A DNA stretch of 25,604 nucleotides from a virus: positions 1 to 25,604 of the IMG/VR virus record IMGVR_UViG_3300023184_002342. One strand, written 5' to 3'. Position numbers and translations under genes: made by a program. Each line of letters opens with the position of its first letter. Within the stretch, counting starts at the first letter, position 1. The notes under the pieces are model-generated. The model was given only the letters and a program-made list of their open reading frames with translations, made no database searches and had not been told where the DNA came from. Of the stretch, positions 12,118 through 13,429 are shown piece after piece.

Positions 12118-12126
12118 TGATATAAT
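12118..12126 (+). promoter_or_regulatory. extended -10 promoter of hsp20
   Basis: TGATATAAT, an extended -10 element, just after the stop of the preceding gene. No good -35 is seen; the expected region is a run of A. Transcription would begin near 12133, at the left arm of the leader hairpin. Confidence 0.65.
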
Positions 12127-12131
12127 TATCC

Positions 12132-12154
12132 TAGGATGCCCTAAAGGGGTCCTA
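12132..12154 (+). promoter_or_regulatory. 5' leader hairpin of hsp20 mRNA
   Basis: TAGGA (12132-12136) pairs with TCCTA (12150-12154), and CCC with GGG inside, leaving loop TAAA. It forms at the extreme 5' end of the predicted transcript. The TCCT of the right arm could alternatively pair with AGGA of the strong AAGGAGGA ribosome binding site (12173-12180), so a two-state thermosensor is possible. Confidence 0.5.
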
Positions 12155-12185
12155 AATTAACTTATTCGCTTGAAGGAGGAATAAA

Positions 12186-12608
12186 ATGGTAACAACATTT
12201 GCATGGGACCTTTTTAAGGACCCATTTTTTATTGGGTTTGATAGGGCGCTAGATACATGGAATCATGTCCAAACAGTATCTGCTTCTACAAATTACCCAC
12301 CATATAACGTAATCAAGGTAGACGAAGACAACTTTGTTGTCGAATTAGCCGTTGCTGGTTTTGGTAAAACAGACATTGATGTATCAACAGCAGACGGCAA
12401 GCTTACAGTAAAGGGAGAATCAAAAACGGAGGATAGCGATTCGAAGTTTATCCACCGTGGTATTGCTGCCCGTAAATTTACTCGTGAGTGGGCTCTTGGT
12501 GAGTATATGGAAGTAAAGGCTGCTGAACTAAAGGATGGAATGCTTAAGATTGATATTGTACGCATTTTGCCAGAAGAGAAAAAGCCAAAGACTATCAAGA
12601 TCAAATAA
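12186..12608 (+). CDS. Hsp20 / IbpA-type small heat shock protein
   Basis: Holdase chaperone of 140 residues. The N-terminal FDRALDTWN segment and YPPYNVIKVDEDNFVVELAV are like IbpA. The alpha-crystallin domain runs about 38-128, with VAGFGKTDIDV, LTVKGE, HRGIAARKFTREW at 91-103 and the closing LKDGMLKIDI. The C-terminal IKIK tail replaces the usual I-x-I anchor and may serve it. Hsp20 genes recur in marine and freshwater phages, where they may protect capsid assembly. The leader has a hairpin and a near-perfect ribosome binding site, and an own promoter suggests separate regulation from the packaging genes. Confidence 0.92.
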   Translation: MVTTFAWDLFKDPFFIGFDRALDTWNHVQTVSASTNYPPYNVIKVDEDNFVVELAVAGFGKTDIDVSTADGKLTVKGESKTEDSDSKFIHRGIAARKFTREWALGEYMEVKAAELKDGMLKIDIVRILPEEKKPKTIKIK

Positions 12609-12612
12609 ATAG

Positions 12613-12618
12613 TATAAT
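12613..12618 (+). promoter_or_regulatory. -10 box for the structured RNA / thermonuclease transcript
   Basis: TATAAT five bases after the hsp20 stop. No extended -10 and no clear -35. A transcript would begin near 12624, exactly at the first stem of the RNA described next. Confidence 0.5.
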
Positions 12619-12622
12619 AAAG

Positions 12623-12737
12623 ATCTGCACCCCGTCACTGGGGAGTCGCAGATATGGGCATCGCTGCCCAGGATAGTCGGGGGAGACAGCGACTTAAAAC
12701 AACTGGAATAGTCCTGAGCATGACTGTAAACTGCTCA
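12623..12737 (+). ncRNA. candidate structured RNA or riboswitch-like leader
   Basis: About 115 nt of unusually G/C-rich DNA in an A/T-rich genome. Visible pairings: ATCTGC (12623-12628) with GCAGAT (12648-12653) around a CCCC/GGGG hairpin; TGGGCA (12655-12660) with TGCCCA (12665-12670). The segment CAGCGACT (12687-12694) can pair with AGTCGC (12644-12649), with TCGCTG (12661-12666) or with AGTCG (12675-12679), which are mutually exclusive. At the 3' end AGTC (12710-12713), TGAGCA (12715-12720), GACT (12722-12725) and TGCTCA (12732-12737) are ordered as an H-type pseudoknot. That knot ends 8 bases before the AAGGAG of the thermonuclease gene. It could be a cis switch or a trans-acting RNA; no known class is recognised. 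Confidence 0.6.
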
Positions 12738-12755
12738 TCAAAATTAAGGAGAATT

Positions 12756-13163
12756 ATGTTTGAATACAGAGTTAAGCAAGTAACAAAGATAGTGGACGGA
12801 GATACTATTGATGTTGACATTGATCTTGGTTTCAGCATATCGTATTCTCAAAGACTTAGACTAGCTGGCATTGATACACCAGAGTCAAGAACAACAGATA
12901 AACTTGAAAAAACATTAGGCTTAGAGTCAAAAGAATATCTTAAGTCTAAGTTTAAAGATGCCAAAGATATTATAGTAAAGACAGAAAAGCCAGATAGTTC
13001 AGAGAAATATGGAAGAATACTTGGCTGGGTTTATCTTGACGGCAATACAAAGTCAGTTAATGAGCAGATGATTGAAGATGGTTATGCGTGGGGATACATG
13101 GGAGAGACTAAGGTCAAAGACTTTGTTGCCTTAGCTGAAAAGAGAAAAAAGAGCGGTAAGTAA
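12756..13163 (+). CDS. staphylococcal-nuclease-like thermonuclease
   Basis: Calcium-dependent DNA/RNA nuclease of the SNase family, 135 residues with no signal peptide, so it acts inside the cell. The active-site residues are R35, D40, T41 and E43 in LRLAGIDTPE and R87 in KYGRILG, with D16 in VDGDT as a metal ligand. AAGGAGAATT precedes the ATG at 12756, which is chosen over an upstream in-frame ATG at 12654 lying inside the structured RNA. The probable role is host DNA degradation or nucleotide recycling. The leader structure suggests translational control. Confidence 0.9.
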   Translation: MFEYRVKQVTKIVDGDTIDVDIDLGFSISYSQRLRLAGIDTPESRTTDKLEKTLGLESKEYLKSKFKDAKDIIVKTEKPDSSEKYGRILGWVYLDGNTKSVNEQMIEDGYAWGYMGETKVKDFVALAEKRKKSGK

Positions 13164-13377: not shown

Positions 13378-13386
13378 TGTTATAAT
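13378..13386 (+). promoter_or_regulatory. extended -10 promoter for the large exported protein
   Basis: TGTTATAAT, a TGnTATAAT extended -10, 44 bases before the TTG start. The upstream 80-base gap is A/T-rich with no clear -35. Transcription would begin near 13393, at the hairpin noted next. Confidence 0.6.
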
Positions 13387-13390
13387 TCTT

Positions 13391-13416
13391 AAGTAAACAA
13401 AAGTATTGTTTTACTT
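13391..13416 (+). promoter_or_regulatory. leader hairpin before the large exported protein
   Basis: AAGTAAACAA (13391-13400) and TTGTTTTACTT (13406-13416) form an inverted repeat with a five-base loop and one unpaired T. It sits at the 5' end of the predicted mRNA, ending at the TAGGAGAAA ribosome binding site. It may protect the 5' end or affect initiation. Confidence 0.4.
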
Positions 13417-13429
13417 AGGAGAAACCTAA

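Follow-up and report, generated by a model that had tools for sequence, protein, structure and literature searches.

The interval between an Hsp20 gene and an SNase-like nuclease gene in this viral DNA raises the question of whether it encodes a switch for the nuclease, or an RNA element of a more general kind. The window analyzed here is a 25.6-kb stretch of the IMG/VR virus record IMGVR_UViG_3300023184_002342, in which the interval forms a GC-rich island (up to 48.5% GC, compared with ~30-40% around it) with a TATAAT box in front and the sequence AAGGAG behind, as reported in a first-pass annotation. That annotation described the island as an undescribed structured RNA with competing stems and an H-type pseudoknot, which would place a toxic nuclease under ligand or phage-timing control. 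The features of the locus are as follows:

12186-12608, + strand: Hsp20 gene, the upstream cistron (PHROG 432 Hsp20, E 5.5e-42)
12613-12618, + strand: TATAAT box, probable -10 element of a phage promoter, found in 33 of 34 related leaders
12623-12653, + strand: hairpin A (ATCTGC...GCAGAT), a modular leader hairpin (-13.6 kcal/mol, z -2.7), found in 27 of 34 related leaders
12655-12670, + strand: hairpin B (TGGGCA/TGCCCA; -9.2 kcal/mol, z -2.3)
12675-12694, + strand: hairpin C (AGTCG/CGACT), which holds the 8-nt segment earlier proposed to switch partners; found in 11 of 34 related leaders
12710-12737, + strand: conserved H-type pseudoknot of 28 nt, with covariation in both stems
12710-12713 (AGTC) with 12722-12725 (GACT), + strand: pseudoknot stem 1
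12715-12720 (TGAGCA) with 12732-12737 (TGCTCA), + strand: pseudoknot stem 2
C12714, 12721 and 12726-12731 (GTAAAC), + strand: pseudoknot loop 1, junction nucleotide and loop 3
12746-12751, + strand: Shine-Dalgarno sequence AAGGAG, 8 nt 3' of the pseudoknot
12756-13163, + strand: SNase-like nuclease gene, the downstream cistron, with its ATG at 12756 (PHROG 452 endonuclease, E 4.9e-47)

The distance of 8 nt between the pseudoknot and the Shine-Dalgarno sequence leaves the SNase start region free. The Pfam SNase domain was found in a close relative of the window's nuclease gene. No clear -35 element was seen ahead of the TATAAT box, no tRNA or tmRNA occurs in the window, and by inspection no small open reading frame in the window ends just 5' of the pseudoknot. 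Two more TATAAT boxes are present in the window (12121-12155 and 13381-13425), each followed by a hairpin-forming leader and then a gene start, and 5' leader hairpins behind TATAAT boxes may thus be general in this phage.

The proposed switch centers on the segment CAGCGACT (12687-12694), which does have three perfect partners: 12644-12649 (AGTCGC), 12661-12666 (TCGCTG), and 12675-12679 (AGTCG). Hairpins A, B, and C each form more stable local structures than shuffled sequences (z -2.3 to -2.7). The fold energy of the whole 129-nt stretch is unremarkable (z -1.5, with 12 of 200 shuffles equally good), and we rejected so ordinary an energy as evidence for a single 129-nt RNA. For comparison, 80 SNase relatives yielded 34 distinct upstream regions (the window counted) carrying the 5' half of the pseudoknot motif, most of them situated between an Hsp20-like gene and SNase. 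Between the TATAAT box and the pseudoknot of these leaders, the hairpins come and go as modules: A and C occur at the frequencies listed above, B is swapped for hairpins of unrelated stem sequence (e.g., CGGG/CCCG, TTTGAGC/GCTCAAA), and the 8-nt segment is present in only 8 of 34. The outer pair of hairpin A changes in both strands (TCTGC/GCAGA to CCTGC/GCAGG). Where hairpin C is kept with altered ends, both ends change together (AGTCG/CGACT to TGTCG/CGACA), which favors the local hairpin over its distant partners. The three-partner switch is therefore not conserved, whereas the pseudoknot is, although in some relatives in this family stem 2 is only 5 bp long or loop 3 is extended (e.g., L275 and L283). 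Locus L321 lacks both the promoter and the hairpins, and its pseudoknot follows the Hsp20 stop codon after 5 nt, an arrangement that further counters a role in nuclease control. A coding explanation for the island (an ATG at 12654, in frame with SNase) was rejected, as leader lengths of 33-97 nt in the relatives do not keep the frame and this ATG is not a conserved start.

The order of the four pseudoknot segments, with loops of 1, 1, and 6 nt, is as first annotated, and compensatory change across phages, which the annotation had put forward as a test, is strong. The consensus of the element is NNNC C UGNNCA N GNNN NNAAAC UGNNCA; it was partly imposed by the search patterns, such that invariance of the pattern-fixed letters constitutes no evidence. 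Covariation was therefore assessed with a looser pattern of 15 fixed letters that requires no pairing, for which at least 239 distinct instances were obtained in all fetched DNA, and 238 of these 239 satisfy the pseudoknot. Among the free pairs of stem 1, positions 2-15 are paired in 99.6% of the instances (44% when shuffled) and 3-14 in 100% (60%); in stem 2, both 8-26 (90% when shuffled) and 9-25 (88%) are paired in 100%. The end pair, 1-16, is weaker (77%, compared with 42% when shuffled), and there is no fifth pair in these instances. Up to four Watson-Crick types are seen at the free pairs, with all four at 2-15, and stem 2 varies as well (GGAC, GACC, GGGC, and CAAU types, down to UCAAUA/UGUUGA in S-CRM01). 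Scanned for structure only, the first set of loci gave another 28 copies that differ from the consensus at four positions at most; in every one, loop 1 contains C and loop 3 finishes with AAAC. Additionally, position 12 and the two bases that follow the element almost never hold G (0-1%); a G at these sites would base-pair with C22 or C5, which would destroy the loops. The core pattern occurs 260 times in 2.68 Mb, compared with 0 occurrences of a reversed control pattern, in DNA largely fetched with such patterns; within the window the pseudoknot occurs once (0.01 expected, with 3 mismatches allowed).

On this comparative evidence, assignment to the H-type fold class, with two stems in pseudoknot order that each show compensatory change, is near-certain, and the predicted pseudoknot is shown by its covariation to be under selection as a gene-independent, intercistronic element of the coding strand. 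It belongs to no family in Rfam 15, in which the window has no match at gathering or relaxed thresholds, the sole match with E<5 being a chance snoRNA on the other strand. We found no description of the element in the literature searched, the coverage of which is incomplete, and we use "undescribed" to mean this together with its absence from Rfam 15. The earlier view of an undescribed structured RNA thus holds for the pseudoknot and fails for the competing stems.

The distribution of the element extends well beyond the SNase family. In a sensitive blastn search of the region against 50,697 phage records, only the 3' part was matched, by Synechococcus phage S-EIV1 and two gut phages, and all three carry the same 28-nt knot, one with a compensatory stem-1 change (CTGTC/GACAG). 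Pattern scans of viral contigs returned at least 120 stretches with a first pattern and at least 120 with the looser 15-letter pattern, these loci being related to one another. Across unrelated phages there are hundreds of occurrences, mostly just 3' of a stop codon, and several contigs contain the element two or three times, with every copy on the same strand. Phages whose hosts are cyanobacteria, Actinomycetota, Bacillota, or Alphaproteobacteria have clear copies, as do Chaseviridae, crAss-like phages, and an ssDNA microvirus. Carriers span a 4.7-kb microvirus to giant phages. Those found by rule include cyanophages (Synechococcus S-EIV1, S-H35, S-RIM4, S-SM2, and S-CRM01, and a Nostoc phage); phages of Paracoccus, Roseobacter, and Lentibacter (Zobellviridae); phages of Mycobacterium (Labelle), Arthrobacter (Molivia), Moorella, and Lactobacillus (phiEF-1.1, phig1e); the thermophilic phage D6E; and Chaseviridae of Escherichia, Erwinia, and Pectobacterium. 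Matches of the Vibrio D456 type and the Staphylococcus DW2 type differ from the consensus and were excluded from the secure copies.

Three contigs have unusual arrangements. In the crAss-like phage cr7_1 (L360), a second knot-like sequence (GAG C TTAGCA T CTC CGTAAAC TGCTA) lies ~60-30 nt upstream of the copy found, and its stem-1 closing C-G pair may be reversed to G-C. A Sneathiella contig (L148:4178-4251) has two identical pseudoknot copies 48 nt apart, a tandem duplication, while in a Leptolyngbyaceae contig (L147:5975-6100) the pseudoknot is flanked on both sides by a near-identical stretch of ~33 bases (GGGCATACTCAATTcAAGGTTTGGTTACCTGTA), as though it had entered together with a repeat.

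Bacterial genome contigs contributed 66 matching stretches. The strict pattern was found in 1 of 391 genomes of the class Clostridia, that one being the genome used as the center of the search, which indicates that the element is mainly viral; of the two variants searched for, neither was found in 5,426 E. coli genomes. In ~20 bacterial genomes there is a conserved tiny gene of ~20 codons, with its own ribosome binding site, whose stop codon overlaps the knot (UCC UGA GCA) (L141:1869-1896, L191:3855-3882, L143:7497-7524, L144:6900-6927, L164:3278-3305, L170:2321-2348, L193:3480-3507, and about a dozen more genome loci). The products of this gene (e.g., MKRFTMPRTAHCSEGCKLKS or MRWMFPHATHCSTCGSIRWS) gave no match in an NCBIfam search, and a terminator is often found downstream.

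The placement of the viral copies relative to stop codons is narrowly bounded on one side. Spacers were counted from the calls of a simple ORF caller, for viral copies among the matches listed. Among 171 viral copies located no more than 40 nt from a stop codon, the spacer between the stop and stem 1 is 4 nt in one, 5 nt in 38, and 6 nt in 23, followed by a tail; an independent tally of 196 copies agrees with the 5-nt floor. Published CDS ends for 12 named phages, one of which is a prophage-carrying plasmid, give spacers of 4, 5, 6, 6, 6, 7, 7, 9, 9, 10, 10, and 12 nt. Typical spacers measure 5-12 nt, and longer ones extend to 40 nt or more. In the bacterial ribosome, the mRNA channel has room for 11 nt, counted downstream from the first nucleotide of the P site (PMC7282821). 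When the stop codon occupies the A site, a spacer of 5 nt therefore reaches precisely to the channel entry, and the knot can stay folded during termination. These distances show that the element is placed as near to the stop codon as possible without entering the mRNA channel of the terminating ribosome. On the other side, start codons are mostly 18-40 nt 3' of the element, which leaves the initiation region free, and ~18 nt or more usually remain ahead of the next start codon. Stop codons upstream of the element are more often UAA (122 of 171) than those of long ORFs (630 of 1,213). We also observed that G is depleted on both flanks of the viral copies (the spacer and the 10 nt behind), at 9% compared with 21% behind stop codons generally.

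Enough flanking sequence to classify the neighbors was available for 248 viral copies. In 95 of these, a stop and a start codon are both close by; in 64 there is just a stop; in 30, a stop and, 3' of the element, a tRNA; in 39 (the window's own family among them), just a start; and in 3, just a tRNA, while 17 have neither codon nearby. A tRNA occurs within 120 nt 3' of 38 of 264 viral copies; the corresponding figure for gene ends in these data, counted within 100 nt, is 89 of 4,975. Of the copies, 36 end 3-13 nt before a tRNA. As 30 of these 36 adjoin tRNA-Asp, the tRNA association is probably mostly one inherited arrangement. A tRNA-like CCA end was considered and rejected, with CCA following only 28 of 274 copies. 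The neighboring proteins fall into 73 upstream and 82 downstream clusters, among them DUF932, Hsp20, ribonucleotide reductase, SNase, RNA polymerase, and helicases, and this variety, along with the tRNA genes, speaks against ligand or phage-timing control of a toxic nuclease. Intrinsic terminators (a G+C hairpin with a U run) are present within 110 nt downstream of only 2 of 274 viral copies (1 of 274 when shuffled), and ahead of opposite-strand genes for 1 of 27.

Taken together, the pseudoknot most likely marks and protects the borders of phage messages rather than switching the nuclease gene. In its specific form we advance this reading tentatively, at slightly less than an even chance: the functional unit would be the 28-nt pseudoknot at 12710-12737, acting as a gene-independent mRNA boundary element. 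Neither termination upstream of the knot nor initiation downstream of it would unfold the structure. Once the polycistronic transcript has been cleaved, whether between cistrons by RNase E or Y or by RNase P at a tRNA that follows, the knot would probably pose a physical roadblock to exoribonucleases. It would thereby determine where mRNA segments end and how long they last, chiefly by capping the 3' end of the message upstream. Where a tRNA follows after 3-13 nt, RNase P cleavage would leave a new 3' end beside the knot, of the kind that RNase E makes in T4, in which such ends are potential entry sites for 3'-5' exonucleases (PMC3014915). In the window, the knot lies in the leader of the SNase message, behind the TATAAT box and the modular 5' hairpins. 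In its broadest form, and again with somewhat less than even confidence, an undescribed RNA element common to unrelated phages with DNA genomes (tailed dsDNA phages as well as an ssDNA microvirus) could mark message borders universally: situated behind stop codons at a distance of exactly one ribosome channel, the 28-nt knot would stay folded under translation and determine where phage transcripts are trimmed. Against a purely 3' role, the 39 of 248 viral copies near a start codon and not behind a stop, the window's family included, fit a 5' role. In the structural operons of a Lactobacillus phage, a related prophage, and D6E-type phages, the element precedes scaffold and capsid genes, a position in which a stabilizer of the downstream segment is equally sensible. 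The bacterial copies that overlap the stop codon of the tiny gene, together with their terminator, are unexplained by a simple 3' cap, and the strict sequence of the loops and outer stem 2 may reflect specific recognition by a protein, the ribosome, or the polymerase rather than mere stability.

Several of these features can be read differently. The knot might instead act on the ribosome, by stalling it at termination or by preventing it from sliding afterwards; neighboring cistrons would then be translated independently, or the ribosome would stay longer on the stop codon. The preferred 5-6 nt spacer agrees with such an action: the first base pair meets the channel entry while the stop codon occupies the A site. 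Frameshift stem-loops impede entry into the A site from just this distance, 11-12 nt counted from the P-site codon (PMC7282821), and the excess of UAA upstream points the same way. We nevertheless regard this as unlikely, since spacers reach 40 nt and beyond, and copies before tRNAs or in leaders far from stop codons would have no target. Slightly less probable again is that the knot protects the segment downstream of it, by blocking 5'-3' decay (of the RNase J type) or 5'-end sensing in the manner of exonuclease-resistant viral RNA. Such a role is consistent with the start-only copies, with the element's presence in the SNase leader of the window and 33 related leaders, with its position before scaffold and capsid genes, and with the lack of a match in E. 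coli, a host without RNase J, for the two variants searched. It accounts poorly for the 64 copies behind a stop codon with no start codon within 60 nt or tRNA, and for the 30 in which a tRNA follows, and a strict link to hosts with RNase J is weakened by the copies in enterobacterial Chaseviridae.

The uniformity of the loop and outer stem-2 nucleotides, beyond what stability alone requires, and the several copies per genome on one strand would also suit a binding or modification site for a protein or RNA polymerase, for antitermination as at HK022 put, or as a translational operator like that of T4 gene 32. This is improbable: a phage gene common to all carriers was not found, the range of carrier genomes implies that only a host factor could serve all of them, and the placement relative to stop codons is unexpected for antitermination. 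The ligand switch originally proposed is the least credible alternative and is largely refuted; it draws on the alternative pairings in the window's one sequence, and a new class is formally possible given the lack of an Rfam match, but the competing segment is mostly missing from related leaders and the conserved part is tied to no pathway gene.

The occurrence of so minimal a pseudoknot, conserved in sequence across very different hosts and genome types, suggests a gene-expression problem shared by phages and solved by RNA alone. If the message-border reading is correct and exonucleases are blocked, this could explain the differing RNA levels of neighboring genes in dense, terminator-less polycistronic phage genomes, and the element would provide a portable 28-nt mRNA insulator for synthetic biology. 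The 5-nt floor behind stop codons also gives a natural, genome-wide readout of the length of the ribosomal mRNA channel.

Comparison with known RNA elements helps to place the knot. The gene 32 mRNA pseudoknot of the T-even phages (T2, T4, RB69) is likewise an H-type phage structure in an intercistronic region, with coaxially stacked helices and two loops (PMC3014915). It is the operator of one gene, bound by gp32 and located 67 nt upstream of the gene 32 start, whereas the element described here is gene-independent, has a fixed sequence across unrelated phages, and usually lies behind stop codons. Rather than occupying the leader of an ssDNA-binding protein gene, it varies in location, and the copy in Arthrobacter phage Molivia lies behind the SSB gene. 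DUF2800 RNA (Rfam RF02960) is a separate 158-nt motif whose model lacks the pseudoknot. This RNA begins directly behind a pseudoknot copy in L004:1500-1687 and L152:2824-3009, a similar sequence is present behind the copies in L161, L171, and L198, and the Rfam model may lack its 5' part. A riboswitch of any class is improbable, as the many neighboring clusters and tRNAs show no association with one pathway, and an intrinsic terminator was rejected on the near-identical real and shuffled counts.

The frameshift pseudoknots of BWYV-type luteoviruses have a very short loop 1 with a C, an A-rich loop 3, and a spacer of 5-9 nt behind the codon, all of which resemble the phage element. The phage element has no overlapping frame; instead, the codon in front is a natural stop, with a new gene or tRNA behind, and a -1 frameshift stimulator was rejected given the stop codon 5 nt or more ahead. 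The stop spacing would suit a readthrough pseudoknot; in the copies that a tRNA follows, an in-frame extension is excluded. The REP/BIME sequences of enteric bacteria are imperfect palindromic hairpins of chromosomes with a proposed block to 3'-5' decay. They share with the phage element its many gene-independent, intercistronic copies behind stop codons, and differ in that the latter is a pseudoknot rather than a palindromic hairpin and, in the two variants searched, has no match in E. coli, a REP host. Viral xrRNAs adopt a ring-like fold and act on eukaryotic 5'-3' enzymes; the phage element shares with them a compact pseudoknot near the start of a 3' untranslated region, and its own resistance to exonucleases is putative.
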